NCBI GenBank assembly: GCA_947450325.1
Contig: CANFUT010000015.1
Span: forward strand, 1-64,000
Direction: 5' to 3'
Length of the DNA stretch: 64,000 nt
From: Flavobacteriia bacterium
GTDB lineage: Bacteria; Bacteroidota; Bacteroidia; Flavobacteriales_D; Crocinitomicaceae
Position 1 is the stretch's first letter, and each line of letters starts with the position of its first letter. A model generated the notes under the pieces. It had not been told where the DNA came from, did no database searches, and was given only the letters and a program-made list of their open reading frames with translations. Position numbers and translations under genes: made by a program. Shown piece by piece: positions 46,316 to 60,542 of the stretch.

Positions 46316-48283
46316 TTAATTTCTAGTATATTTTCTCTTACGCAAATAAAGCATCAATCCTGCAAAAACCAGAATAATTCCACTTGGCAAAAGCATGTTG
46401 ATGAATTTGTAAAATCCAGCATCAACTTGCACTTTTTCTTTGTCGATGGCATGAATGTCAATTTGTTTACTTCTCAAATCCAACACTGAATTGTCGCCCA
46501 TCATGTAATCCACCATATTCTGAAAAAACTCTTGATTTCCATAAATCAATGGCGGCACACCTTGCATTTGAGCAACAGTTTCGTCAAATTTCAATTCATT
46601 GAAAGCGTTTGGAATGTAATTGTAAGTTCCAGTCATTTTATCTGGCACAGAATCATATCTATTTTGCAAAAATGTACCATTTCCAACTACCAAAACTTTT
46701 CCTTCCGATGTACTTGATTCTTTGTATTTGGACAATTTATTTTTTGCGTAGGCATCTACTATTCTGTTCTTAAAGTGAGAAGTAAATTTCCCTTCTACTA
46801 AACCAGCCAAGCAAAGTTTGTTGTTTTCATCTTCCGGATCTGGCGCTAACATTGGGTTTTTCCCATAACTTGCAGGAATTGACAAACTAATCATCGGCGC
46901 TAAACCAGTCATGGAAGAATTGGTTGAAGATGTCAAAATCGGAGAAGCTACATTCGTGCTATTTCCAACAAATTGAATTTCAGAAGCATATTTCAACAAT
47001 ACTGGATCGATATTTCTCGCAATTGGATGCTTTGTTTGTGTAGCGCGAATGAAGAAAAACCACGGAATAAATCCTTGTTCAGAAGCGGGTATCGCTTTTG
47101 GTGCGCAACGAACATCAAACACATAATTGTCGTTGACTTTGATTCCGTAATCGTACAACATTTTGTCTAACTCAATATTCGTTCTTGTAGTATGAGCAAC
47201 GCCAGTTCGCAGCAAAGTATCTTCTTCAAACGACAATTTATCTACAAAACACATCAATCTTCCGCCGTTCATTACAAATTGATCGATGATGTATTTGTCT
47301 TTTTCAGAAAAAGCTGAACGTGGTCGAGCGATGACCAAACCTCTTACGCCGTTTAATGCGTCGATTGAATCATTTAATATTAGATCTTCGACCGTGTAAT
47401 AAGGTGAAATCAAAGCTCTTGCACGCTGAGTTTGCGCCAATGTCAATTCTCCATGACCTTGCAAAAATGCAATTCTTGGTTTGTTTGATTGTGTAGCACG
47501 ACGAATTCCGCTGATAATCATGTATTCCAAATTGTTGATGGAATTTTGAATTTGATCGTCGAAAGACTCATTCAAGGTGTAAAATTTTCCTTGTGGTGTT
47601 CCGGGCAAAAATTGAATGTGATTGACAGTACTTCCACCGTAATCGATTTCCGCTCCAGGCCACAAAAGCAATTGATTTTGCGCACCATCTTTCATGTACA
47701 TCAAACCCATTGGAACAATTCCTTTTCCTTTGTTATAGATCGTTTCTTGCATGTACAATCTATCTTCTTCAGAACCAGCTAAAGGATCAACGAAAGTATA
47801 TTCAATTCGCGAACCTGCGTATTCTTTGAATTCTTTCAGTTTATCTTCGATTGCATTTTTGAAACGTTGCACTTCCGCAGGTAAATTCCCAGCCAAATAG
47901 ATTTTGATTGAAACCCTGTCAGCGAAATTCTTGGTATTTGACAAATATTCAATTGTACCGTCTGAAAGTGAATACCTTTTATCTTCAGTCACATCAAATC
48001 GCGCATACATGTATGAACCAATGATGTTAATTAATACAACAGAAGCAATTAGAATCATTAAAAATGTCCAATTGTAAACTCCTTTAAAAACTGATTTATT
48101 TTCAACACCCTTATTTTTTTTACTCAAAAAACTTATCCATAAACTAGCGATAATTGGCTCAATCAATGCAAAAATTGACCAACGAACTTTAGAAAAATTT
48201 AATTTTTCAGCTCTATTTACACAATAAATAATTCCAATTAACCTGAACGCAATTAATAGTATTAAGAGAATAGTAGAATTCAT
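46316..48283 (-). CDS. gldG: Gliding motility ABC transporter protein GldG
   Basis: 655 residues. Core GldG features: a membrane helix (about 72-90) followed by DVTEDKRYSLSDGT, then the GldG/IFT52-like domain (IAFLQGHGELTLAQTQ, GLVIARPRSAFSEKDKYIIDQFVMNGGRLMCFVDK) and a C-terminal membrane helix (about 628-648, FINMLLPSGIILVFAGLMLYL) with a basic tail. Compared with GldG of about 560 residues, this protein has ~65 extra N-terminal residues with two more membrane helices. GldG works with GldF and the ATPase GldA, which is not in this window, in gliding motility. It starts 7 bp after the gldF stop. Confidence 0.88.
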   Translation of the reverse strand: MNSTILLILLIAFRLIGIIYCVNRAEKLNFSKVRWSIFALIEPIIASLWISFLSKKNKGVENKSVFKGVYNWTFLMILIASVVLINIIGSYMYARFDVTEDKRYSLSDGTIEYLSNTKNFADRVSIKIYLAGNLPAEVQRFKNAIEDKLKEFKEYAGSRIEYTFVDPLAGSEEDRLYMQETIYNKGKGIVPMGLMYMKDGAQNQLLLWPGAEIDYGGSTVNHIQFLPGTPQGKFYTLNESFDDQIQNSINNLEYMIISGIRRATQSNKPRIAFLQGHGELTLAQTQRARALISPYYTVEDLILNDSIDALNGVRGLVIARPRSAFSEKDKYIIDQFVMNGGRLMCFVDKLSFEEDTLLRTGVAHTTRTNIELDKMLYDYGIKVNDNYVFDVRCAPKAIPASEQGFIPWFFFIRATQTKHPIARNIDPVLLKYASEIQFVGNSTNVASPILTSSTNSSMTGLAPMISLSIPASYGKNPMLAPDPEDENNKLCLAGLVEGKFTSHFKNRIVDAYAKNKLSKYKESSTSEGKVLVVGNGTFLQNRYDSVPDKMTGTYNYIPNAFNELKFDETVAQMQGVPPLIYGNQEFFQNMVDYMMGDNSVLDLRSKQIDIHAIDKEKVQVDAGFYKFINMLLPSGIILVFAGLMLYLRKRKYTRN

Positions 48284-48290
48284 AATCTTA

Positions 48291-49022
48291 TTATTTCTTT
48301 AATGATTTAATAACTGTAAGTGCAGATGCCATGAAAATGGTTATTACTCCCAAAAAGTAAACGATATCACTCGTGTCGATTACGCCGCGTTTGATAGAGT
48401 CATAGTGAACACTGATTCCACAATATTTGATGATAGAATCAAAACCGCCCATCAAACTGAAAGAACCGAGTAAAGTCAGTCCATCATAAAAAATCCAGCA
48501 CAAAAACATCGCTAAAATGAAAGCAACAATTTGACTCGAAGTAATTGAAGAAGCGAAAATTCCGATGGCAACAAACGTTGAACCCAACAAAATCAATCCA
48601 ATGTATGAAGTGAATGTCGCTCCATCATCGATAATTCCCACTGGATTTCCTAAATAATGCATAGAAATGTAGAAAATCAATGTTGGAATCAAGGTTATGA
48701 CAACCAAGGTTACGCCAGCAAAATATTTTGCCAATAAGATTCTCAAATCAGAAATTGGTCTGGTGAACAACAATTCAATCGTTCCAGTTCTTCTTTCCTC
48801 TGCAATTGAACGCATGGTTATCGCAGGAATGAGGATTAAGAAAATCAACGGGGACAAATTGAAAAATGGAATCAAATCAGATTCTGAACCTTCTAACAAA
48901 TTGGTATTGTATGAGATAACCCAATGAAACAGTCCTGATGTAATCAAGAAAATCAAAATAAAAATGTATCCAATGATTGAACTCAGGAAACTCCGAATTT
49001 CTTTAAAATATAAAGCTTTCAT
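48291..49022 (-). CDS. gldF: Gliding motility ABC transporter permease GldF
   Basis: 243 residues with six membrane helices (first at about 13-33, IIGYIFILIFLITSGLFHWV). The family signature LIPAITMRSIAEERRTGTIELLFTRPISD (about 60-88) marks an ABC-2-type permease. It is the membrane partner of GldG and begins the gldF-gldG-DUF4340(-dnaN) run. A near-consensus promoter lies 20 bp upstream. The ATPase gene gldA is not next to it, as is also the case in several flavobacteria. Confidence 0.9.
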   Translation of the reverse strand: MKALYFKEIRSFLSSIIGYIFILIFLITSGLFHWVISYNTNLLEGSESDLIPFFNLSPLIFLILIPAITMRSIAEERRTGTIELLFTRPISDLRILLAKYFAGVTLVVITLIPTLIFYISMHYLGNPVGIIDDGATFTSYIGLILLGSTFVAIGIFASSITSSQIVAFILAMFLCWIFYDGLTLLGSFSLMGGFDSIIKYCGISVHYDSIKRGVIDTSDIVYFLGVITIFMASALTVIKSLKK

Positions 49023-49042
49023 CTAAAATTTTAAATAACGCC

Positions 49043-49073
49043 CAAAATTAGGATTAATGTTGGAATTATTCAA
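49043..49073 (-). promoter_or_regulatory. gldF promoter
   Basis: Minus strand: TTG (49073-49071), 20-nt spacer, TAATTTTG (49050-49043), 20 bp before the start codon. Confidence 0.6.
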
Positions 49074-49176
49074 CACTATCTTTTGAATAGTATCAAGGGT
49101 CTATTGTTTGGAACTTTTTTTTGCGGTAATTAGGAATTAGGGAATAGGATTTAGGCATTGGGGAAGAAAACTTCAA

Positions 49177-49362
49177 GGCAAACGCATTTAACTTAAAAAA
49201 ATAAAATAGCTCCGTAGGAGCGACATGTTTGTAACGACGGTTTCGATATATATCGGAATCGTCGAACAAACAAATGCATGAATTCCCTTTTTGGCATGCA
49301 TTTTTGAAAAAATCATGACAAAAAACCTTTGTTCGAAATATCAGCTTTTAAATGCGTTTGCC
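49177..49362 (+). repeat. 186-bp element with 15-bp terminal inverted repeats, copy A
   Basis: Flanked by a perfect 15-bp inverted repeat (GGCAAACGCATTTAA at 49177-49191 and its complement at 49348-49362). Inside are a TAGCTCCGTAGGAGC hairpin (49207), a GACGG...CGTC hairpin around CGATATATATCG (49236-49263) and a GCATG...CATGC block. 49207-49362 is ~90 percent identical to the reverse complement of 59626-59782. It sits between the gldF and rlmH genes and holds no gene. It resembles a MITE or a structured RNA element. Confidence 0.8.
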
Positions 49363-49435
49363 CTTAATAATCCATTGACTTGCTTTCTTCTCGGTTTGCA
49401 AAAAAAAATGTAATCTTGTAATCTCAATTTTAAGC

Positions 49436-49909
49436 ATGAAAATCAAAGTAATTTGTATTGGTAAAACCGGAAAAGGATTCTTGGAAGAAGGAGAAACGAC
49501 TTATTTGAATCGATTGAAACATTATGTTCCCGTTGAGCGCATAGAAATTCCTGATTTAAAAAATGCCAAAAGTTTGACTGTCGACCAAATTAAAAAACAC
49601 GAAGGCGATTTGATTCTTTCGAAAGTGAACAGTGGTGAACAACTGTATTTATTGGACGAACACGGAAAAACGTTTACTTCGGAGAAATTCGCTGATTTCT
49701 TGCAACAACGTTTCAACCAAGGTGGACATGCTTTGACTTTGGTAATTGGCGGACCTTATGGTTTTTCGGAGGAAGTTTACAAAGCTGCCAGTGGCAAAAT
49801 ATCACTTTCAGAATTGACATTTTCACATCAAATGGTGCGCATGATTTTGTTTGAGCAATTGTATCGTGGCATGACCATTTTGAGAGGAGAACCTTATCAT
49901 CATAGTTGA
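49436..49909 (+). CDS. rlmH: 23S rRNA (pseudouridine1915-N3)-methyltransferase RlmH
   Basis: 157 residues, standard length. SPOUT-fold enzyme that methylates pseudouridine 1915 of 23S rRNA in the assembled ribosome. The knot motifs are clear: LYLLDEHGKTFTSEKFADFL (about 63-82), LVIGGPYGFSEEVY (about 102-115) and SELTFSHQMVRMILFEQLYRGMTILRGEPYHHS at the C-terminus, which ends in the conserved YHH. It is a single plus-strand gene in a mainly minus-strand stretch. Confidence 0.95.
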   Translation: MKIKVICIGKTGKGFLEEGETTYLNRLKHYVPVERIEIPDLKNAKSLTVDQIKKHEGDLILSKVNSGEQLYLLDEHGKTFTSEKFADFLQQRFNQGGHALTLVIGGPYGFSEEVYKAASGKISLSELTFSHQMVRMILFEQLYRGMTILRGEPYHHS

Positions 49910-49954
49910 AAAACCCAAACATCGAAAAAACTCCGACATGTGAATTTTCAATAA

Positions 49955-50716
49955 TTATTGTGCACAAAATCCACCATCGATGATTTGCGTCGTACCTGTG
50001 ATAAATTGACTTTCATCGCTGGCTAAAAACAACACCAATTTTGCTATTTCTTCTGGCTCGGCATATCTTCCTAATGGAATCATCGCTTCGAATTGTTTTT
50101 GCACATCTTTCGCATGTCCTGCCGAAGCGCCTTCTTCGATTGAACGCATCATTCTGTTATTGACTGGGGAAGGATGCACAGAATTGACCCTGATTTTTCT
50201 CGCTGCGACTTCAAGTGCTGTCGTTCTCATGATTCCAACAACTGCGTGCTTGCTTGTCACGTAAGCATCCAAATGCGCAGAACCAACAATTCCAGCAACT
50301 GAAGAAGTCATGATGATACTTCCACCGTCATTCATTTGTGGAATTACATATTTGTTTCCTTGCCAAACGCCTTTTACATTGACAGCAATTACTTGGTCAA
50401 AAATCTCTTCTGGATAATCGACAATGGGACAAACAACGCCTTCGATGCCCGCATTATTGAAAAAAACATCAATTTTGCCGAAAATTTTCACCGTTTCGTT
50501 GACGTAGTTTTCAACGTCTTTGGACTTTGAAACATCAGCCACACAAAAGTGGACATCTTCACTGCCCAATTCAGTTATCGTTTTTTCTAAATCTGTTTTG
50601 TTTTTGTCAACCAACATCACTTTGGCGCCTTCTGACAAGAAAATTTTGGCGGTCACTTTTCCGATACTTCCAGCACCACCTGTAATGATGGCTACTTTGT
50701 CTTGCAATCTTTTCAT
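49955..50716 (-). CDS. SDR family oxidoreductase
   Basis: 253 residues, classical SDR: NAD-binding TGGAGSIGKVTA (about 13-24), Asp37 after the second strand (VDKN, NAD preference), NNAG (about 88-91), SSVAG with the active-site Ser, and YVTSK. The C-terminus GTTQIIDGGFCAQ is typical of glucose 1-dehydrogenase-like SDRs. Substrate unknown. The cupin lipoprotein gene stops 20 bp before its start, so the two are likely one transcript. Confidence 0.85.
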   Translation of the reverse strand: MKRLQDKVAIITGGAGSIGKVTAKIFLSEGAKVMLVDKNKTDLEKTITELGSEDVHFCVADVSKSKDVENYVNETVKIFGKIDVFFNNAGIEGVVCPIVDYPEEIFDQVIAVNVKGVWQGNKYVIPQMNDGGSIIMTSSVAGIVGSAHLDAYVTSKHAVVGIMRTTALEVAARKIRVNSVHPSPVNNRMMRSIEEGASAGHAKDVQKQFEAMIPLGRYAEPEEIAKLVLFLASDESQFITGTTQIIDGGFCAQ

Positions 50717-50736
50717 ACTAGTTAATTTTAAAATTT

Positions 50737-51243
50737 TTAGCGTTTTTCAGTCGTTTTACCATCAAATTTCTCAGCGATTTCATCCGCTTCTTTTTTGGTT
50801 TTTCGAATGATTTTGTCCTCGTGATTGGGCGGAGAATAAATGGTATATAATTTCAAATCCCATTTATCATCTGTATTAATGATATTGTGCTTTGCACCAG
50901 CCGGAACAATAATCGCATCTCCAATTATTATTTGGCGAACATGATCATTGATAATGCACTGCCCCATTCCATTTTCCACTCTAAAAAATTGTTCAACTGA
51001 GGTGTGTGTTTCCTCCCCTATTTCTTCTCCAGGTTTTAAGGACATGACCACCAATTGCATATTTTTTCCAGTGTATAAAACTTGTCTGAAATTTTTGTTT
51101 TGAAGTGTGATAACTTCAATGTTTCCTTCGTAACCTTTCATATTTTTTGATTTAAAATTTTCTTTTTCGTGAATCGATGATTTCTGTTCGCAAGCTGATA
51201 TCAGGACACTAAGCGCTGGAACAATCCAAATTTTACAATTCAT
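50737..51243 (-). CDS. Cupin-domain protein with lipoprotein signal
   Basis: 168 residues. The C-terminal ~135 residues form one cupin: LKPGEEIGEETHTSVEQFFRVENG (metal motif 1, with GEEIGEETH and Glu) and GDAIIVPAGAKHNIIN (motif 2). Residues 1-34 form a lipoprotein signal with lipobox LISAC (Cys18). Most relatives of this cupin start directly at the MKGYEGNIEVITL segment (residue 35 here) and are cytoplasmic, so here the cupin appears to carry an added export signal. The start at residue 35 remains a possible alternative. Confidence 0.75.
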   Translation of the reverse strand: MNCKIWIVPALSVLISACEQKSSIHEKENFKSKNMKGYEGNIEVITLQNKNFRQVLYTGKNMQLVVMSLKPGEEIGEETHTSVEQFFRVENGMGQCIINDHVRQIIIGDAIIVPAGAKHNIINTDDKWDLKLYTIYSPPNHEDKIIRKTKKEADEIAEKFDGKTTEKR

Positions 51244-51579
51244 AGTGTTTGTTTTGATTACAAATTTCTATGATTTGACTAGATAAAATCTTACGAAATT
51301 CTTGTTCAATGTTGTGAAATTTTGAGCAAGTAGTTCTATTGCCACCAAATAGTTATAAAAACTAAACTTTCATTCAAAATATCATTCCCAACAAAGCTGC
51401 CAAACTGAGTTATACCGAAATCGCTAAAAAGTCAATTGAAAAATGAAATAAAAAATTGATTGAAGTAAAGTGTTTTTTCTCTTGCCAGGGATTATCTGCG
51501 ATGCGGCTTCGCGTTGCAGGGAAGTCGCTGATTATTTTTTTTGCCACGGATGACACGGATATCACGGATTTTTTGCTAC

Positions 51580-51790
51580 GGATGGCACGGATTTTTTTTA
51601 GAATCTAACCCAGTTCCATCCCTTTTGGGGATGAAATGTGGGTAAAAAAGAACACCACAATCGAGAACTCGTCGCGGTAGGGACGAAATAAAACATTTGC
51701 TTTTACGGAAATCTCAATCATCGAGAGAAAGCCCAACTAAAACTTAGGGAAAATTGTTAAATGCCCATCATTCTCAAAAGGGTTAACGTT
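51580..51790 (+). repeat. Intergenic repeat Y, copy 1 (211 bp)
   Basis: Direct repeat of 52622-52832, same length, roughly 85 percent identical. It contains the hairpin CATCCCTTTTGGGGATG, GTGGGTAAAAAAGAACACCAC and GTAGGGACGAAATAAAAC, and ends in TTAACGTT. Confidence 0.85.
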
Positions 51791-51911
51791 CCGCGGCTTT
51801 GCGCCGTGGCGGCAAGTTAAGAATAAATGTAATAAGAAATTCTGATGTTCGGAGTATTTTCCAAGAAAGACAAACCAGCTATTGCGCGAAACCGCTCTTG
51901 TAGGCAGTTAT
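51783..51911 (-). repeat. Imperfect inverted-repeat element with TAAC...GTTA ends (1)
   Basis: The left side reads TTAACGTTCCGCGGCTTTGCG, the right side GCGCGAAACCGC...GCAGTTA. It sits directly after the stop codon of the SUKH gene (in the direction of that gene). Similar elements lie at 54425-54557 and, in part, at 52823-52840. Confidence 0.5.
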
Positions 51912-51915
51912 CGTA

Positions 51916-52383
51916 CTATCTTCTTTCACGTTCCTCTTTTTTAAGTGCAATTAAATGCGCTATAAATTCAGATAAACTGTTTCCAATTTGTTTTATTCTT
52001 AATTGTTGATATTCACTTATGGCTTCATAAACTTTGGGATTATTTCCTTCGTCTAAATACACAAAAAAGAATTGATCACCTCCATTATAAATGTCAATTA
52101 CGTAAAATGGTCTTTCAATTTTCAAATTACTGTCTTCCAAAACTTCTTTGACAATATTCTGCAATTCCTGTTGAGTTTCACAAAGGCCATAATCCAAACC
52201 ATCACAATATCCTCCGGCTAAAAACAACAATTCTTTCAAAGCTTTAGGAAATATTGCAACATTGTTAAACTGTTTTTCTAAAGTTTTAATTTCTTCGATT
52301 GGCAAAGGTTTGTTTTTGACAGTCTGACCAGAAAAATTTATATAAGAATGATTTATAAGTTCTGTTAAATATTCAATTTCCAT
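51916..52383 (-). CDS. SMI1/KNR4 (SUKH) family protein
   Basis: 155 residues. SUKH fold signature: PIEEIKTLEKQFNNVAIFPKALKELLFLAGGYCDG (about 27-63), then a hydrophobic core FYVIDIYNGGDQFFFVYLD (about 93-112) and a terminal helix. SUKH proteins are frequently immunity proteins against nuclease toxins in contact-dependent or polymorphic toxin systems, but others have unrelated roles. No toxin gene is adjacent. It is a single gene between repeats in the accessory island. Confidence 0.8.
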   Translation of the reverse strand: MEIEYLTELINHSYINFSGQTVKNKPLPIEEIKTLEKQFNNVAIFPKALKELLFLAGGYCDGLDYGLCETQQELQNIVKEVLEDSNLKIERPFYVIDIYNGGDQFFFVYLDEGNNPKVYEAISEYQQLRIKQIGNSLSEFIAHLIALKKEERERR

Positions 52384-52423
52384 CGATAAAAGAGTTTTGA
52401 GATAATTGCCTACAATTTATTTA

Positions 52424-52564
52424 TACACGATAAAAATAACCCTTTTATTTCGCATGTGCAACCAAAGTCGAATCGCTTGGCGAAACTGGTGTTTCGGGTT
52501 ATTCATTTTAAAAATCGGCGAATCGACTCTTCATTTGCTGTATACTTTTGGTGCTGACATGTGC
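52424..52564 (+). repeat. Intergenic repeat X, copy 1 (141 bp)
   Basis: Aligns without gaps to 56460-56600, roughly 85-90 percent identical. Core: TTGGCGAAACTGGTGTTTCG followed by GGTTATTCATTTT. Both copies flank accessory genes on the same strand arrangement. Confidence 0.85.
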
Positions 52565-52621
52565 TTATATTTAACTTCGTATCTGCTTTGCAGTGCAAGG
52601 AAATCACGGATTATTTACTCT

Positions 52622-52832
52622 GGATGGCACGGATTTCTTTTAGTATCCAACCCTGCTCCATCCCTTTTGGGGATGAAATGTGGGTAAAAAAGAACACCAC
52701 ACTCGATAACTCGTCGCAGTAGGGACGAAATAAAACTTTTGCTTTTAAGGAAATCTCGATTATCGAGAGAAAACCTAACTAAAACTTAGCGGAAATTTTT
52801 AAATGCCTGTAATTCAAAAAAGGGCTAACGTT
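52622..52832 (+). repeat. Intergenic repeat Y, copy 2 (211 bp)
   Basis: See copy 1 at 51580-51790. This copy ends in CTAACGTT, 17 bp from the stop codon of the caspase gene, as copy 1 ends near the SUKH gene. Confidence 0.85.
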
Positions 52833-52848
52833 TTGCGCGTATGTGATG

Positions 52849-53592
52849 TTAAAGGCTGTTTAATTTTATTGCAAATGGGAAATTCAAGTTTTCTTCACTA
52901 TCATTTATCGTTACAACTTGTGGATTCTGATCAAAATTTGATTTGAATTTCAAATACTGATGAGCTAAATCATTCGCATCATTTATAGATAATACGCTTT
53001 CGCTATTTTGGCTCTCATACCATTCCAAAGATGTTTTTAGCAATGAATAAGTATAGTCGCCTCCTAATTCTGTATCATTACTTATTTCTCCAACAGAGCA
53101 AGCATACGCTATAGAAATACCATCTGTACTTTCAGAAACTATTTGCATGTATTTTTCACTAGAATTTGGTTGATTTAAAGTTGATTTAAAGCATAAATAT
53201 TCAGGGCCTGAGAAACTTGAGTATTCTTCAACTATGGATTTTCGGCAAGTATCAATAATTATTAGGGCTTTAGGTGCTTTTATAATCGAAACTAATTGAG
53301 AAACAGAAAGTGATTCGGAGTCATTTATTGCAATATTCGTTTCTTTTAAACCTTGTTGACCATGGCCGGAAAAATATACAAGTAAGAAATCAGTATATGT
53401 ACTCTGGAATAATTCGATTAAATTTTCAGATGGACATTTAAACAGTCCTGTTATTTCATTATCCTCCCAAGAACCACCAATAGGTGATTTTAAAAAACTT
53501 ACAAAGTGATGTAAATCTGTGTCTACGCCCCTTAAATACTGCTTCGTGTTCTTTGGCCCTGGTGAACCGATCATTATAGCTTTTCTTATCAT
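52849..53592 (-). CDS. Caspase-like (C14) protease
   Basis: 247 residues with no signal or membrane segment. The caspase-hemoglobinase fold is clear: IMIGSPGPKNTKQYLRGVDTDL at the N-terminus, the catalytic His77 in LLVYFSGHGQQG and the nucleophile Cys116 in ALIIIDTCRKS, each after a hydrophobic strand. There is no attached TPR, WD40 or other effector-associated domain, so the enzyme must be controlled in trans. The gene starts 117 bp after the DnaA-like gene, on the same strand, inside the accessory island. This setting is typical of bacterial conflict systems in which a protease is triggered by a sensor, so a role in defence is inferred and unproven. Confidence 0.82.
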   Translation of the reverse strand: MIRKAIMIGSPGPKNTKQYLRGVDTDLHHFVSFLKSPIGGSWEDNEITGLFKCPSENLIELFQSTYTDFLLVYFSGHGQQGLKETNIAINDSESLSVSQLVSIIKAPKALIIIDTCRKSIVEEYSSFSGPEYLCFKSTLNQPNSSEKYMQIVSESTDGISIAYACSVGEISNDTELGGDYTYSLLKTSLEWYESQNSESVLSINDANDLAHQYLKFKSNFDQNPQVVTINDSEENLNFPFAIKLNSL

Positions 53593-53709
53593 ATTTTAAT
53601 TGAATTTAATGTTTTCGAACATGCGCATACCCTTTTCGGGTTGTGCTTGCACGCTGTTTTAGTCCGGTTTATAAAGGTTTCAGAACTTAATTGTTATTTA
53701 TGATTCTAT

Positions 53710-54384
53710 TCAGTAATATTTTTTCACGATTTGAATATCAGGGGTAGTATCCCCTAATGCCCTTTTCGCAAAAATGGATATTATCAACCCTTCAATTTCT
53801 CTTACACTTAAATTATTAAGACCTCCAATGTAATTGATAGATTCTGAACACAAATCCATTTTTTCAGACTTGAGTAATTGTTTAATGATTATTTCCTTTT
53901 CTATCACCGATGGCCTAGTGATTTTTATTTCTTTTTGAACTATTGGAACTTTTGTTCCTTCGTTATACGTGAAAATTATTTTCGTATTTACATTTTTGAG
54001 AACTTCAACAATCTTATTACTGATTTCCTTATTTGAGCTTTCGTAAAAACTATCGATAAGAATCAAGGATTTACTATTTAAGAATTCTTTATTAAAAATT
54101 GTCAACTCATTATTTTCAGAGTTATTGGAAATCAATCTTTCAAAGCTTGAATAAAATACTTCCTTTCCCCTTTCGTTGACTTCAATTTTGTTTAGTATAG
54201 CTAAAGCAAGATGAGTTGCACCATTACCAATTGTACTGGAAATGCCTAGCACATTATACGGAGTCACTGATAGAGCAAATTCAATTGCAGTTGATTTTGC
54301 TGTTGTATTTGTGTCGACAGAGATGAAATTCTCGAAACTTGCGCGTTCTTTTGCAGGATAAGTGCTTGAATATTTGTTTGTCAT
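53710..54384 (-). CDS. Degenerate DnaA/Hda-like AAA+ domain protein
   Basis: 224 residues. The order of motifs follows DnaA domain III: FENFISVDTNTTAKSTAIEFA (17-37), then GISSTIGNGATHLALAI (47-63) at the Walker A position, SKSLILIDSFYES (104-116) at Walker B, and NNLSVREIEGLIIS (190-203), the DnaA SNVRELEGA region. Three catalytic positions are changed: the Walker A Lys is Ala56 (GNGATH for GLGKTH), the second Walker B Asp is Ser112, and the arginine-finger motif is absent. DnaA domains I, II and IV (DNA binding) are also missing. It is probably a nucleotide-free or weakly binding relative. Its partner is likely the caspase encoded next to it. Confidence 0.7.
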   Translation of the reverse strand: MTNKYSSTYPAKERASFENFISVDTNTTAKSTAIEFALSVTPYNVLGISSTIGNGATHLALAILNKIEVNERGKEVFYSSFERLISNNSENNELTIFNKEFLNSKSLILIDSFYESSNKEISNKIVEVLKNVNTKIIFTYNEGTKVPIVQKEIKITRPSVIEKEIIIKQLLKSEKMDLCSESINYIGGLNNLSVREIEGLIISIFAKRALGDTTPDIQIVKKYY

Positions 54385-54424
54385 TTTTTTAAATATTTAT
54401 CTTTAGGTTGTTGGTTTTAAACTT

Positions 54425-54557
54425 GCCTATAACGGTTTGCGGCTTTGCGAAGAAGCGGAATTGGGAAACGCAATGCTTTAGATTAAACGAATATACCAAG
54501 AAAAACGAATGCTTCAAACTCGCAACAATGCCCGCTTATAGCAAAACTGCTGTTATG
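54425..54557 (-). repeat. Imperfect inverted-repeat element with TAAC...GTTA ends (2)
   Basis: The left side reads CTATAACGGTTTGCGGCTTTG, the right side CTTATAGCAAAACTGCTGTTATGC, and the two arms are partly complementary over ~135 bp. It lies between the zinc-finger nuclease stop and the DnaA-like start, like an attC site between two cassettes. No integrase gene is present in the window. Confidence 0.55.
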
Positions 54558-54602
54558 CACTGTACCGTTATTTAAAATATGCTTGCCTTTTGAATTAATT
54601 AG

Positions 54603-56288
54603 TTAATCTCTTTCGTTCCATTTTAGGCGACCCGAACAATAGGGACACCACGATTTTCTGTTAATAATACTTTTAGGTTGCGCTGGCCAAATATGACCTT
54701 TAGAACATTGCCAGGTTAATTTACTGACATTATTTATATATGTTTTTGATAAGCATTTACCACCTCTAGTTTTTGCTATCTCTAACATTTCATCAATTGT
54801 ATGTTTCGATTTACCTGCACATTGCTTGCACCATGAGCCAAGCTTAATACTACTAGGAGATGCAGGCCAAGTGTGACTCTGTGAACATTCCCATATTAAA
54901 GGAGTTCTGCTATTAATATATACACTTGATAAGCATCGGCCATTTCTGTCAATCGCTATCTTCTGCATTTCTTCAATTGTACCTTTCTTTGTTCCAGCAC
55001 AATCTGGACACCAACCACCCATTTTTAATTTGTTAAAAGTTGGAGTCCATGTATGCTTTTTCTCACACTCTACAAGAAGTTTTGACTGATTGTTTACATA
55101 TTCATTGCTTAGTAACCTACCTTTTTTAGTCTCAACTAATTGCTTAATTTCATTTAATATAGAGTGATTTTCGTAAAAATCATTAAGTAAATAGTTAAGA
55201 TCTGTATCAATGAATGCAATCTTATGTCGAGATAATTCATTTTTTATAAATGATACCAATTTTGTATCAGTTTCGACTTTATTAAAAGGAATAATAATTA
55301 GTTTAATACCTAAATGCTCACATTCATTCAATTTAATACTATCGCGAATTCTCATTTCGCATAGCTTGTCTTCACTCTTATTAAAAAAGCGTCCAATATC
55401 GTAATGCTGCTCGCCGTTATACTCAAATGCAAGATTATATTCTTTTGAATATCCATCAAGCTCATAACCACTTTCAAGGATTCTTCGTGATTTACGAAAT
55501 TCTGTATTCAATAATCTCTCAAGTATGTATTTGCACTTTGCTTCTTGTTTATACCAATTACAATGAGGGCACCATGATTTGTGCTTAACGTCTGTTGGCC
55601 TTGCTTCCCAAGTATGATTATCCTTACATTTCCATTTAAGTTTTGTAGAGCTGTTTATATACATATCTGACAAGCACTCTCCACCCTTAGATTTGGCGAT
55701 GGCTCTCATTTCCTCAATGGTTCCTAATTCTAGACCTGCGCAAGTACGACACCAAGACCCACTGTTTTTTATATCTCCAGGCCTTGAGTAAAAAATATGG
55801 CCTGATTTACATTTGAATTTCAACTTATTATTTTTGCCTTCATACTTTAATGAAAGACAAATTCCCCCTTTGATTATGGCAATTTTTTTAAAATCTTCAA
55901 TTGTCGATAACCTTCTTGGAGAACATTCTCTGCATCCAATTCCTTTCAAAAGATGTTCGGGAGTCAATTCGAATAAATGACCATTAGAACAATTAAATTT
56001 AAGTTTAATATTTCCACCCTTGTATTCATTGGATAGGAGTTCAAAGCCACGATTTCTCGCTACTGATTCTAATGATTGAATAGTATGGCGTGTTTGCTTT
56101 CTTCCTGTACAATCAGGACACCAATAGTTTCTATTGAAAATAGCTCTTGGTTCTAAGGAAAATAAATGTCCTTTGTCACATTTCCAACTAAGTTTTATTC
56201 GGCCATTGGTGTAACTTTCTGACAAACAAATGCCACCTTTCTTCTTTGCAAGGTTTTGAAAAAATTCAATATTATATTTCATTTCCAT
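54603..56288 (-). CDS. Seven-zinc-finger protein with central EDxHD/Vsr-like nuclease
   Basis: 561 residues. Seven treble-clef-like repeats of ~45 residues share the pattern GG-CLS-Y-NxxxKLxWxC-xGH-W...P..I...WCPxC. They are repeats 1-4 at about 18-60, 80-122, 140-183 and 202-243, and repeats 5-7 at about 389-430, 449-490 and 509-551. Between repeats 4 and 5 (about 245-340) lies a PD-(D/E)XK-related domain, ELDGYSKEYNLAFEYNGEQHY, with candidate Asp278, Glu289, Glu293 and His295, then IRDSIKLNECEHLGIKLIIIPF, as in Vsr-like homing endonucleases with the EDxHD motif. It is probably a DNA-cutting, DNA-binding enzyme; whether mobile or defensive is not known. A start at the second Met (56282) is possible. 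Confidence 0.78.
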   Translation of the reverse strand: MEMKYNIEFFQNLAKKKGGICLSESYTNGRIKLSWKCDKGHLFSLEPRAIFNRNYWCPDCTGRKQTRHTIQSLESVARNRGFELLSNEYKGGNIKLKFNCSNGHLFELTPEHLLKGIGCRECSPRRLSTIEDFKKIAIIKGGICLSLKYEGKNNKLKFKCKSGHIFYSRPGDIKNSGSWCRTCAGLELGTIEEMRAIAKSKGGECLSDMYINSSTKLKWKCKDNHTWEARPTDVKHKSWCPHCNWYKQEAKCKYILERLLNTEFRKSRRILESGYELDGYSKEYNLAFEYNGEQHYDIGRFFNKSEDKLCEMRIRDSIKLNECEHLGIKLIIIPFNKVETDTKLVSFIKNELSRHKIAFIDTDLNYLLNDFYENHSILNEIKQLVETKKGRLLSNEYVNNQSKLLVECEKKHTWTPTFNKLKMGGWCPDCAGTKKGTIEEMQKIAIDRNGRCLSSVYINSRTPLIWECSQSHTWPASPSSIKLGSWCKQCAGKSKHTIDEMLEIAKTRGGKCLSKTYINNVSKLTWQCSKGHIWPAQPKSIINRKSWCPYCSGRLKWNERD

Positions 56289-56459
56289 ATTTTAACTTCG
56301 AGTTTGAAGGTATCCAATTGAATAATTTCATTAAAATTCAAATATAGGAAGCTTATTAAATGTATAATTAATTATTCACATACTTTTTACCTCGTGCCTG
56401 TAAAGATATCGCTGTTGGTTCTGAAGATGATTGTATAGGTATTGTGCATAACTTATTGA

Positions 56460-56600
56460 TACACGATAAAACTAACACTTTTATTTCGCATGTACAACCC
56501 CAGTCGAATAGCTTGGCGAAACTGGTGTTTCGGGTTATTCATTTTACAAATCGCCGAATCAACACTTCATTTGCTGTATGATTTTGGTGCTGATATGTGT
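56460..56600 (+). repeat. Intergenic repeat X, copy 2 (141 bp)
   Basis: See copy 1 at 52424-52564; same orientation. This copy closes the accessory island on its right side. Confidence 0.85.
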
Positions 56601-56805
56601 GTATTTTCGGTTATTTTACCTCTTTTATGCCCCAAAAGCTCCCGTATAAATCGCAAATCAGTGCCGCTTTACATCAAATGCAAGAGTTAAATGTGTCTCA
56701 AACAATGCAAAGTTACAGGTTTTTAATATTAGCAATTGTATCACTTTTATTTAAAAAAACCAACACTAAACTCATGTGTCACGAACAGGTCTATCAAAAA
56801 ATCCC

Positions 56806-56813
56806 TACCTTTG
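56806..56813 (+). promoter_or_regulatory. -7 box for the ABC-F gene
   Basis: TACCTTTG, a perfect TAnnTTTG, ends five bases before the ATG at 56818. The transcript would be leaderless, and the in-frame extension to 56776 would place the promoter inside the gene. Confidence 0.5.
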
Positions 56814-56817
56814 CGGC

Positions 56818-58761
56818 ATGATTAATTTAGAGCAACTTGGGGTCTTTCTTCCTCAAGGTTTTTTGTTTAAAGACATAACATTACAAATCAATAAAGGTGA
56901 TAAAATCGGACTTGCGGGCAAAAATGGCGCAGGAAAATCAACACTTTTGAAGTTGATTGCCGATTGGGAAAAGCCTTCCGAAGGAAAAATTCACAGACCT
57001 AAAGATTCAACGATTGGATTTTTAACCCAAGATATTAAAATCGATACCACCAAATCTGTCTTCGATTATTTGAATTTCTCAAATGAATTGTTGAACAGTT
57101 TACGCACCAGATTAGACCAAATTAACCACGATTTAGTGGCTCGTACAGATTATGAAGCCGATTCATATTTGGCTTTGTTGGATGAATTAAACGAAGTAAA
57201 CGACCAATTCAATTTACACGAAGGTTTTCAATGGGAAGAGAAAATTACTGCGACTTTAGAAGGTTTAGGTTTTTTTCCGTCAGACTTTGACAAACCGCTT
57301 TCCTCTTTTTCTGGAGGTTGGAAAATGCGTGCTGAATTGGCGAAAATTTTGGTCAATCAACCAGATATTATTTTGCTCGATGAGCCGACCAATCACTTGG
57401 ATATTATTTCCATTTCGTGGTTGGAAAACTACTTGCAAAAGTTTGAAGGTGCTGTGATTGTGATTTCTCACGACCGTTTGTTTTTGGATAATGTAACGAA
57501 ACGAACATTGGAGATTTCGCAAGGAAAAGTGTGGGATTATCCATACAATTATTCGCGTTACAAAGAAAAACGTGAAGAAGAATTGGCGCTGATGGTGAAT
57601 GCCAAAAAGCAACAAGAAAAAGACATCAAGCACACCAAAGAATTGATCGACAAGTTCCGTGCGAAGAAAAACAAAGCTTCTTTTGCGCAATCGTTGATTA
57701 AAAAATTGGATAAAACCGAAATCATTGAAATCGAAAGCAATGCCATTGCCAAAATGAAAATGCAATTTCCACTGAGTATTCAGCCTGGAAAATGGATTTT
57801 GGAAATGAAAGATGCTGGAAAAACGTATGGCGACAAACAGCTTTTCAAAAACATCAACATTACTGTTGGTCGCGGAGAAAAAATCGCTTTGCTTGGACCG
57901 AATGGTGTTGGTAAATCCACTTTGCTGAAATTGGTGATGAAAACCATAGAAGGTGAAGGTGTGATGGAATACGGTCACAATGTGCAAATTACGTATTTCG
58001 CGCAAGATCAAGCAGAAAAATTAGATGTCAACAAAACGATTTACGAAACCGTTGATGACATTGCAGAAGGTGAAATCAGAAAAGATTTACGCAGTATTTT
58101 GGGAACTTTCTTGTTTTCTGGTGAAGACATCGACAAAAAAGTCGGCGTACTTTCTGGAGGAGAAAGAACCCGTTTGGCTTTGTGTCAATTGTTGTTGAGT
58201 CCTTGTAATTTCTTGATTCTCGATGAGCCAACGAACCACCTTGACATTCAAAGCAAGGAAGTTTTGAAACGCGCCTTGATCGATTATGAAGGAACATTTA
58301 TTGTTGTTTCTCACGACCGTGAATTTTTGGACGGATTGACAAATCGTATTTGGGACATTCAAGACAAAACCTTGAAAATTCACCATTACGATGTGAAAGA
58401 ATATTTGGCTATGAAGATGTCTTCCCCAGATGCAGATGCCAAAAACACCTTGAAACCAACGGTGAAAGAAGTGGTAAAAGTGGAAGAAAAAGTGGTCAAA
58501 GAGCCGGTTTCATTCGAAGAACAAAAAGAATTGAAACGCAAACGCACGCAATTTCAAAATCAAATCAAGAAATCGGAAGAAATGATTGCCGCTTTGGAAA
58601 CAAAAATCGCCAATATGGATGAAGTTTTGACAACCTTGGATTACACCGACGAAGCGAAATCATCGAAAGTATTGGCAGACTATGCAGATGCGAAAAAGCA
58701 ATTAGACGAAACGATGCTTGTTTGGGAGCAAGCGGTGGAAGATTTAGATAATTTGAAATAA
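56818..58761 (+). CDS. ABC-F family ATPase
   Basis: 647 residues, two fused ABC ATPase domains with no membrane segments: Walker A GLAGKNGAGKSTLLKL (about 27-42) and LLGPNGVGKSTLLKL (about 360-374), ABC signatures LSSFSGGWKMRAELAK and LSGGERTRLALCQ, Walker B LLDEPTNHLDI twice, a P-site linker between the domains and a long C-terminal coiled coil (about 560-645). ABC-F proteins bind ribosomes and adjust translation or give resistance. It has its own promoter and is followed after 9 bp by the DUF2797 gene. Confidence 0.93.
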   Translation: MINLEQLGVFLPQGFLFKDITLQINKGDKIGLAGKNGAGKSTLLKLIADWEKPSEGKIHRPKDSTIGFLTQDIKIDTTKSVFDYLNFSNELLNSLRTRLDQINHDLVARTDYEADSYLALLDELNEVNDQFNLHEGFQWEEKITATLEGLGFFPSDFDKPLSSFSGGWKMRAELAKILVNQPDIILLDEPTNHLDIISISWLENYLQKFEGAVIVISHDRLFLDNVTKRTLEISQGKVWDYPYNYSRYKEKREEELALMVNAKKQQEKDIKHTKELIDKFRAKKNKASFAQSLIKKLDKTEIIEIESNAIAKMKMQFPLSIQPGKWILEMKDAGKTYGDKQLFKNINITVGRGEKIALLGPNGVGKSTLLKLVMKTIEGEGVMEYGHNVQITYFAQDQAEKLDVNKTIYETVDDIAEGEIRKDLRSILGTFLFSGEDIDKKVGVLSGGERTRLALCQLLLSPCNFLILDEPTNHLDIQSKEVLKRALIDYEGTFIVVSHDREFLDGLTNRIWDIQDKTLKIHHYDVKEYLAMKMSSPDADAKNTLKPTVKEVVKVEEKVVKEPVSFEEQKELKRKRTQFQNQIKKSEEMIAALETKIANMDEVLTTLDYTDEAKSSKVLADYADAKKQLDETMLVWEQAVEDLDNLK

Positions 58762-58770
58762 TTCAATCAG

Positions 58771-59571
58771 ATGCAATCACACATTGGTCAACTTCATAAA
58801 ATGTCGGTTACATTAGCCGATCCGATTCAATACACGTTGGATTTAGATGTTCCCATCGACATGAATGCATTGATAGGCAAGGAAATCAAACTTTCATGGT
58901 ACGGCGGAATTCAATGTATTTCTTGCGGAAAACCAACGAAAAAATCGTTCAGCCAAGGATTTTGCTACACTTGCTATTTGAAAGCACCAGAAGCAGCTGA
59001 TTGCATTTTAAGACCAGAATTGTGTCGCGCGCATTTGGGCGAAGGACGCGATATCGAGTGGGAAGAACGCAACCACAATCAACCACATTTCGTGTATTTC
59101 GCTGCATCAGATGTTGTGAAAGTCGGCGTCACGAGATCAACACAAATCCCAACGCGCTGGATTGACCAAGGCGCAAGTTCAGCGATCAAAATTGCAGAAA
59201 CGCCAAATCGATATTATGCAGGCGTGATTGAAGTTGCCTTGAAAGATTATTTCACCGACAAAACCAATTGGCGCAATATGCTCCAAAACAAACAAGATGA
59301 AAGCATCGATTTGGTGGAAGAAAAATGGCGTTTGGAGGAAATCTTACCTGCAGATTTAATGGCTTTTTTCACCGAAGACGATGAAATCGAAACTTTGCAT
59401 TTTCCTGTGGAAACTTATCCAACTTCTGTCAAAAGTGTTGGTTTTGATAAAGAAAATACGATTGAAGGAAAATTAATGGGAATCAAAGGGCAATATTTGA
59501 TTTTTGAAAATGGCGCGGTTTTGAATATTCGCAAGCATACGGGGTATATTGTGGAGTTGAGTTTTGAGTGA
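58771..59571 (+). CDS. DUF2797 domain-containing protein
   Basis: 266 residues. A zinc ribbon with Cys49, Cys52, Cys65 and Cys68 (CISCGKPTKKSFSQGFCYTC) is followed by HFVYFAASDVVKVGVTRSTQIPTRWIDQGA, which resembles the GIY-YIG nuclease strand-turn pattern, and by a charged tail. It is a member of DUF2797, whose function is unknown. It lies 9 bp after the ABC-F gene stop and probably shares its transcript. An internal ATG at 58801 is an alternative start. Confidence 0.8.
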   Translation: MQSHIGQLHKMSVTLADPIQYTLDLDVPIDMNALIGKEIKLSWYGGIQCISCGKPTKKSFSQGFCYTCYLKAPEAADCILRPELCRAHLGEGRDIEWEERNHNQPHFVYFAASDVVKVGVTRSTQIPTRWIDQGASSAIKIAETPNRYYAGVIEVALKDYFTDKTNWRNMLQNKQDESIDLVEEKWRLEEILPADLMAFFTEDDEIETLHFPVETYPTSVKSVGFDKENTIEGKLMGIKGQYLIFENGAVLNIRKHTGYIVELSFE

Positions 59572-59625
59572 AAAAATTACTATAAATTTAGTCTGTAATT
59601 TTGAAATACATTATATTTCTCATTG

Positions 59626-59782
59626 GGCAAACGCATTTAAAAACTAATTTTTCGAACAACGGCTTTTTGTCATGATTTTTATCAAAAATACATGCCAAAA
59701 AGGGAATTCATACATTTGTTTGTTCGACGATTCCGATATATATCGGAACCGTCGTTACAAACATGTCGCTCCTATGGAGCTA
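59626..59782 (-). repeat. Dispersed element, copy B
   Basis: Inverted copy of 49207-49362 (same internal hairpins, about 90 percent identical). It keeps the GGCAAACGCATTTAA end but lacks the second terminal repeat, so it is truncated or lost one end. It lies downstream of the DUF2797 gene. Confidence 0.8.
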
Positions 59783-59801
59783 TAATCTCGTGTGATGAGA
59801 T

Positions 59802-60542
59802 TTAAAGAGAGAAATTCGGAAAAACTGATTTCACAAACGACACCAATCCAACAACTAAAATCAGTCCCAAAACGAGGAATTTGAATTGTTTGTCAGAAAA
59901 TAAATTCAATGCTTTTTTGCCAATCAATGTTCCCAATAAACTGACCACCAACAAAATCGGAATCAAATACAAATCATGTTTGTGCACGTACCCGTTTGAA
60001 ACATAGACCACGCTCCTACTGAAATCAATTCCCAAATCGATTACTGCCGAAGTGGCGATAAAAATTTCCTTTTTGAGATTAAAAGCAGCCAATGTCAATC
60101 CACGAATGGCGCCACCAGTGCCCAATAATCCAGCGGTGACTCCAGAAAGTGCGCCGCCAGTAATTGCGTTGAATTTGGTTGGTTTCAATTCCAAATTTTT
60201 GAAAACCAATAAAATTGAACTCATCAAAATCAGAAAAATCGCCAATGAAAACTGCAAGATTTTGGTGTCTAAATATTTGCTCAAAACAGCGCCTAAAATG
60301 ACAAATGCCACTGCGGGAATTCCAATTCTGATGATCAATTGCTTATCGACGCCTTTTCGGAATATGGCGATTTTGGAAAGATTACTTGACAAATGAAATA
60401 ATGCGGTAATTCCTAACACAGAATCGAAATCCAGGAAAAATCCAGCGATGGGAACAAAAAACAACGAAGAACCAAAACCACCAACTGTTCCTAAAATTTC
60501 AGCCACTAAAGCCAACAACATAAAATAAATCAAGTGCTCCAT
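59802..60542 (-). CDS. TauE/SafE-family membrane protein
   Basis: 246 residues, about eight membrane helices (first: MEHLIYFMLLALVAEILGTVGG). The family pattern GGFGSSLFFVPI near the N-terminus and GGALSGVTAGLLGTGGAIRGL in the middle mark the TauE/SafE anion-exporter family. Members export sulfite or other sulfur-containing or organic anions, but the substrate here is unknown. It is a single gene; no sulfur genes are adjacent. Confidence 0.85.
   Translation of the reverse strand: MEHLIYFMLLALVAEILGTVGGFGSSLFFVPIAGFFLDFDSVLGITALFHLSSNLSKIAIFRKGVDKQLIIRIGIPAVAFVILGAVLSKYLDTKILQFSLAIFLILMSSILLVFKNLELKPTKFNAITGGALSGVTAGLLGTGGAIRGLTLAAFNLKKEIFIATSAVIDLGIDFSRSVVYVSNGYVHKHDLYLIPILLVVSLLGTLIGKKALNLFSDKQFKFLVLGLILVVGLVSFVKSVFPNFSL

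Follow-up and report, generated by a model that had tools for sequence, protein, structure and literature searches.

A putative pseudo-ATPase related to DnaA domain III on mobile, defence-type DNA

DnaA occurs almost universally and many regulators act on it, and a copy of its motor domain that is conserved yet catalytically dead and that resides on mobile DNA would be unusual. Such a copy appears to be encoded on the minus strand at 53710..54384 of the window, the 64,000-nt stretch of Crocinitomicaceae DNA (contig CANFUT010000015.1) analysed in the present study. The open reading frame starts with an ATG at 54384 and comprises 224 codons, and plus-strand frame 1 over the same interval contains many stops. 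The assignment as a DnaA domain III pseudo-ATPase gene was based on the ORF, family models, homologues, alignment and fold.

First, the protein is a recognisable relative of DnaA. Matches were obtained with the Pfam Bac_DnaA model (PF00308; 3e-9, 37.7 bits, cut-off 23) and with the NCBIfam DnaA model TIGR00362 (1.5e-15), although the curated cut-off of the latter was not reached (57.2 bits vs 343.9). DnaA chains in the PDB were matched at 1.2e-7 with the single sequence and at 1e-15 with the family profile. Judged by these matches, the likeness to DnaA is far above chance. In NCBIfam, a DnaC-like model was matched at 0.0012 and Hda at 0.035. The AlphaFold2 model, built from a six-row alignment, is of moderate quality (pLDDT 66.4, pTM 0.55), and its best Foldseek match was domain III of Thermotoga DnaA (2.8e-10, TM 0.70). 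Comparison of the model with DnaA domain III using VIA-align gave a Z of 14.9 and an rmsd of 3.1 over 202 residues, and Hda ranked next (Z 13.2), followed by more distant AAA+ proteins (Z no higher than 11.9). The protein extends from the N-linker of domain III to the end of that domain, and domains I, II and IV are absent; the identity to the DnaA of the same genome is 27%. Since four defining features of DnaA are missing, the protein is, on the aligned sequences, a DnaA-derived stand-alone domain III and not a DnaA.

Second, the residues expected to support ATP hydrolysis have been replaced or lost. In the alignment, motifs were placed using 13 DnaA proteins chosen for GKTH, which serve only to locate the motifs. 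An initial annotation made from the letters alone had described a domain of the DnaA initiator family with a lysine-to-alanine change at residue 56, a Walker B DD changed to DS and no RLKSRF motif, and these claims have held. Residue 56 is Ala (GNGATHL compared with GLGKTHL in DnaA), Walker B reads ILIDSF compared with IIDDVQ, and Box VII (RLxSRFxWGL), which carries the arginine finger, is missing. The SNVRELEGA-like stretch mentioned there is present as SVREIEGL, and the sensor 2 Arg is retained in the window protein; we take the finger and sensor 2 residues to correspond to those of DnaA. The reported lack of domains I, II and IV and the descent from the initiator family were likewise borne out, the latter by sequence, homologues and fold; the best-matching folds were DnaA domain III and then Hda, the two families that the annotation had named as expected best hits. 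That the protein has been "reduced to a binding module" we can only infer. The surroundings of the gene, overlooked in that annotation, matter, because an integron-like array is found here and defence-like islands elsewhere.

Third, the replacements are shared by all known copies. Six copies were found in five genomes, including that of the window, all in one bacterial family. The identity to the window protein is 94% in genome G453, 39% in G708 and 36% in G642; genome G430 also has homologues, of which the N-terminal part and the C-terminal part each appear twice, always at contig ends, and we read these parts as two split copies. GNGATHLA is present in all six N-terminal parts, with A56 in each, IDS is present in every homologue part that includes Walker B, and the RLxSRFxWGL box is missing in all six C-terminal parts. 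A normal Walker A, which the initial annotation had taken as a sign of recent mutation, was not found among the homologues. By comparison, GKTH was read in 52 of 52 DnaA loci from the same family and order, which represent 51 distinct genes (G672 was counted twice) and some of which end at contig ends; eight of these loci fell outside the first pattern and, read separately, also gave GKTH. The patterns for Walker B, the finger and sensor 2 in the DnaA loci were rough and partly off target or empty, and only GKTH is relied on. Because all six copies carry GATH and all of these DnaA loci carry GKTH, GATH is, on the evidence of these alignments, a trait of a conserved pseudo-ATPase subfamily. A recent point mutation in Walker A was also considered and is rejected, as GATH is common to all six copies.

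The distribution of this subfamily is very narrow, in searches that might miss more diverged members. When 84,980 species genomes were scanned once with degenerate patterns, 5 loci were obtained, consistent with the four other known genomes. Among 395 genomes of the phylum, only the genome of the window was recovered, whether the search used the protein (at 1e-15) or the GNGATHLA pattern, and among 399 genomes of the order, searched at 1e-8, the matches besides the known homologues were long, DnaA-sized frames. No homologue was found in phages, plasmids or viral contigs at the sensitivity used. With six copies in five genomes, the evidence for conservation comes from four independent lineages. 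The identity between lineages is 30-39%, which, together with the 27% identity to the DnaA of the same genome, points to an old split.

These data bear on one alternative, namely that the gene is a decaying, non-functional fragment of DnaA. The truncated domain content, the loss of catalytic residues and the pseudogene remnants in the surrounding array are in keeping with decay, and so are the two N-terminal parts of G430, which show no sign of constraint (dN 0.011, dS 0.014, 4 differences). However, the frames are open in all copies despite 30-39% identity between lineages, and the same replacements occur throughout. Between the window and G453, dN is 0.023 and dS 0.083 over 220 codons, giving a dN/dS of approximately 0.28, measured on few changes (11 synonymous and 12 non-synonymous codons), and eight consecutive residues are invariant across the copies. 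The two C-terminal parts of G430 gave a dN of 0.011 and a dS of 0.069 with 8 differences. Contradicted by conservation across four lineages, decay is the least probable account considered herein.

The pattern of conservation indicates which part of the protein has been maintained. Twenty-two of the 107 alignment columns filled in all six rows are invariant, one of which (L210) is an artefact caused by the truncated ends of the G430 rows. According to our assignment, 16 of the 22 belong to four elements: the N-linker (F17, F20 and N26), the strand that leads into the P-loop (I48 and S50), the P-loop itself, and Walker B, where I110-D111-S112 is strictly conserved. The longest invariant run is GNGATHLA, with 8 columns, a length reached in 3 of 20,000 column shuffles, although this test overstates independence, as two pairs among the six rows are near-identical. 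Because GNGATHLA is the longest invariant run, the nucleotide pocket appears to have been disarmed yet not left to decay, and the strict conservation of the remaining pocket speaks against the protein being just a leftover scaffold. The sensor 2 Arg is retained in four of the six copies and lost in both G430 copies, so the pocket is not uniformly retained across copies. The invariant retention of a P-loop lacking its lysine raises a structural question in itself: either a ligand is still held in the lysine-less pocket, or the loop now serves as a protein-contact surface.

One further reading concerns another part of the domain. The initiator-specific motif of DnaA sits between strand 2 and Walker B, and in the moderate-quality model two helices (81-91 and 99-103) are predicted in that position, although the stretch is shorter than in DnaA. 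The protein could then be a module for binding single-stranded DNA, or a nucleic-acid receptor, derived from this motif and acting without DnaA as a target. A role as nucleic-acid receptors has been proposed for inactive NTPases (PMC8195603). We consider this reading quite unlikely.

Fourth, the gene is found in varied settings, several of which resemble defence loci. The G642 copy lies among genes for YhcG/DUF1016, Bro-N, GmrSD and an IetA-like AAA protein, and on one G430 contig, AbiEi/AbiEii genes are found together with that for a Schlafen-group helicase; according to PADLOC and Pfam names, these settings would be defence-like islands. In G642, a cyclic-phosphate processing receiver domain (PF20274, 3.5e-24) is encoded directly after the DnaA-like gene, at L069:7836-8210. 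The protein itself gave no match in PADLOC-DB 2.0, at E 10 for the window protein and at 0.001 for the G708 copy. The G453 copy is adjoined at L067:8268-11539 by genes for a 478-aa protein judged by eye to be a putative lipoprotein, for a small protein that contains hydrophobic stretches, and for a protein of 477 aa with a weak likeness to tubulin (Pfam Tubulin at 0.002, under the cut-off).

In G708, the copy adjoins a WYL regulator, two genes of a family here called TRIDF and a gene for a UVR-motif protein, and a similar cluster can be pieced together across unjoined contig ends in G430, where a WYL gene and two TRIDF genes lie next to the N-terminal parts, and the gene for the UVR protein lies next to the C-terminal parts. 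This arrangement raises the possibility of a nucleotide or ligand sensor, in which occupancy of a non-hydrolysing pocket would switch binding to a UVR-motif or TRIDF partner, and the invariant pocket residues around the missing lysine would fit such a role. On the other hand, AAA+ proteins that lose the Walker A lysine normally no longer bind nucleotide, and the copies in the window, G453 and G642 have no WYL/TRIDF/UVR cluster alongside. TRIDF genes were found in 48 of 240 family genomes, and because 44 of these 48 lack a DnaA-like gene of the present kind, the latter is an optional passenger of TRIDF clusters. No DnaA-like gene was observed among ORFs of at least 70 aa in 20 stretches around TRIDF genes, and among the examined loci with TRIDF or UVR genes, it occurs only at those of G708 and G430. 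A sensor is on balance doubtful. TRIDF itself is a beta-rich family, often paired around a WYL regulator and often accompanied by a UVR-motif protein (members include L068:4442-4918, L068:5992-6405 and L070:6470-6946). No Pfam match over the cut-off was obtained for the three members scanned, and a model with pLDDT 72 gave no PDB match by Foldseek at E 0.001 (best 0.019); TRIDF looks like a widespread uncharacterised module.

Fifth, the gene in the window appears to lie in a mobile block within a cassette-like array. A blastn comparison revealed a 797-bp block at 53644..54440 (minus strand) as the sole strong DNA match to a stretch of G453, L067:6945-7739, which holds the 94%-identical gene copy. 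Because the flanks of the shared block are unrelated, the gene, with about 60 bp on each side, seems to move as one unit. An attC-like site is located upstream of the gene at 54424..54562 (minus strand; GCATAAC ... CGCAAAGCCGCAAACCGTTATAG), found by repeat and pattern searches, and its GTTATAG end is no more than about 10 bp from one border of the mobile block. A second site with the same core follows the SMI1/KNR4 gene at 51780..51916 (minus strand), found in the same way. When up to 2 mismatches are allowed, the core, TAACGNTNNGCGGCTTTGCG, which we presume to be attC-like, has two occurrences in the entire genome, both in the array, compared with one for a reversed control pattern, and 0.02 matches to a near-identical pattern would be expected in the window.

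On the minus strand, the array begins with a recombinase remnant at 56441..56740, which corresponds to the 3' end of a tyrosine-recombinase gene and is interrupted by stops, and in which 56591-56740 matches the integron integrase model TIGR02249 at E 1.2e-7 with 4 stops. This remnant is followed by the treble-clef gene at 54603..56288 (minus strand, 561 aa, repeated zinc fingers, DUF4379/CapR by Pfam/family match), the attC-like site, the DnaA-like gene, the caspase-like gene and a 242-nt repeat. The order continues with a second copy of the recombinase tail (52405..52571, minus strand, 87%, recombinase likeness judged by eye), which heads the SMI1/KNR4 (SUKH-1) gene at 51916..52383 (minus strand, 155 aa, family match), then the second attC-like site and the 242-nt repeat again. 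Both repeat pairs are 87% identical (242 nt, 51554-51795/52596-52837; 167 nt, 52405-52571/56441-56607), and they frame the array as two tandem units, with a recombinase tail at the start and the 242-nt repeat at the end of each. Further repeat copies were observed at the syntenic locus of G453 (L157), and the 242-nt repeat also occurs in G699 (L155). In the 561-aa protein, the zinc fingers flank a middle stretch that resembles a Vsr/HNH-type nuclease by eye.

Taken together, the array seems to be integron-like, with genes that move singly, as far as the arrangement of repeats and blocks allows. It is not called an integron because no integrase above the TIGR02249 cut-off was found in the window genome or in 240 genomes of its family, the single-strand folding of the attC-like sites was not better than that of shuffles (z 0.93 and 0.08), and a clear attC-like site could not be discerned between the DnaA-like gene and the caspase gene. 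The recombinase remnants could stem from a XerC/D-like enzyme instead of an integron integrase. G453 encodes a 524-aa tyrosine recombinase with a long N-terminal extension (L090:164-1738), which matches part of the integron integrase model at 9e-41, below the cut-off, and is a possible source of the recombinase tails. Rfam models searched against 48000-60000 of the window yielded nothing relevant, the one match being a weak snoRNA hit (0.63) under the gathering threshold.

The neighbour of the DnaA-like gene in this array suggests another partnership. A caspase-like (C14) gene at 52849..53592 (minus strand, 247 aa) encodes a His-Cys dyad (SGHG His77, DTC Cys116) and shows a weak match to the model for EACC1-associated caspases (25.6 bits, cut-off 140). 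In the window, it is the sole accepted defence gene adjacent to the DnaA-like gene, from which it is separated by 117 bp on the same strand. The two genes might therefore form a unit in which the pseudo-AAA+ protein senses the replication proteins of an invader and triggers the protease. However, the syntenic locus of G453 (L157:8692-9747) carries the caspase block (window 52605-53659, 95%) without the DnaA-like gene. The caspase copy itself occupies L157:8759-9499 (96%), and about 25 kb of the same contig separate the block from the DnaA-like gene. The homology blocks of the two genes meet at 53644-53659, which, by these comparisons, marks a junction between separate modules, and a tblastn search with the caspase detected no relative in seven stretches (6.6-14.7 kb) around the other DnaA-like copies. 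The caspase was thus judged to be a separate module and not an obligate partner, a role weakened by the separate blocks in G453 and by the absence around other copies, and the probability of a two-gene unit is small.

Herein, we propose that the gene encodes a stand-alone DnaA domain III that has lost hydrolysis and acts, as a pseudo-ATPase on mobile, defence-type DNA, as a decoy that stalls DnaA or helicase-loader assemblies. This proposal is tentative, and we put it somewhat below an even chance. ATP hydrolysis would have been lost, most simply once and long ago, and the gene would since have been maintained as a pseudo-ATPase on mobile, defence-type DNA. As neither the catalytic pocket nor the finger is present, no motor role is expected, and we infer that the protein would work stoichiometrically. 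It may join or cap an assembly of DnaA or of a DnaA/DnaC-like helicase loader, of either the host or an invader, and stall it; such stalling would amount to a dominant-negative decoy action. As for the pocket that remains, it could keep a nucleotide bound in a fixed state or accommodate a residue supplied by the partner.

In the opposite reading, the protein would be active without the lysine, as an ATPase or helicase loader belonging to a phage-like element. This reading would draw on the PHROG comparison, in which the best match is the DnaC-like loader phrog_50 (2.8e-5, and 5.1e-8 for the G708 copy). Nevertheless, three catalytic features are missing, and no phage or viral-contig homologue was found; an active loader is very improbable. 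A stronger form of the decoy proposal is a mobile "pseudo-initiator", in which the DnaA domain III decoy, with three catalytic positions disarmed, passes between bacteria as a single-gene defence cassette that poisons DnaA or helicase-loader assemblies and would either block the replication of invading DNA or arrest the host. We regard this specific form as unlikely, although worth stating. If the protein is a decoy, it would constitute a compact inhibitor of natural origin, directed at DnaA or at phage helicase loaders.

In a search of the open-licence literature, no prior description of a DnaA-like pseudo-ATPase or of a DnaA-like defence protein was found, and the protein is best placed by comparison with known systems. 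With DnaA domain III (PDB 2z4r, 8bv3, 8btg), it shares the AAA+ fold, the N-linker pattern F..F.....N, the glycines, Thr and His of the P-loop, the first Asp of Walker B and, in four of six copies, the sensor 2 Arg; it differs from DnaA in the K-to-A change in Walker A, the D-to-S change in Walker B, the missing Box VII arginine finger and the absence of domains I, II and IV. Hda, the regulatory inactivator of DnaA (PDB 3bos, 3sc3), is also a stand-alone DnaA-like AAA+ domain of similar size and ranks second to DnaA among the fold families (for 3bos, Z 13.2 and an rmsd of 5.6 over 192 residues). However, Hda retains the Walker motifs and the arginine finger, and the present protein scores 13.7 bits with TIGR03420, for which the cut-off is 194.8. 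The DnaC/IstB-type helicase loaders (PF01695, phrog_50) are relatives within the AAA+ initiator clade and gave weak matches, below the PF01695 cut-off (17.8 vs 24.1), whereas the matches to DnaA are much stronger.

A further parallel is provided by the inactive NTPases of conflict systems (PMC7159879 and PMC8195603), in which dead NTPases occur in defence-type loci and dead enzymes act as decoys or dominant-negative parts of bacterial conflict systems. The inactive NTPases described there are iSTAND, FtsK and MinD/ParA-like, unlike the DnaA-derived protein reported here, and the word "DnaA" does not occur in the main text of either source. If the present protein is a decoy, the theme of dead enzymes in bacterial conflicts would extend to the replication initiator. 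Binding to DnaA by a protein from a mobile element has a precedent in YfdR of a cryptic prophage, which, according to PMC4776307, binds DnaA, and extra copies of its gene cluster reduce initiation.
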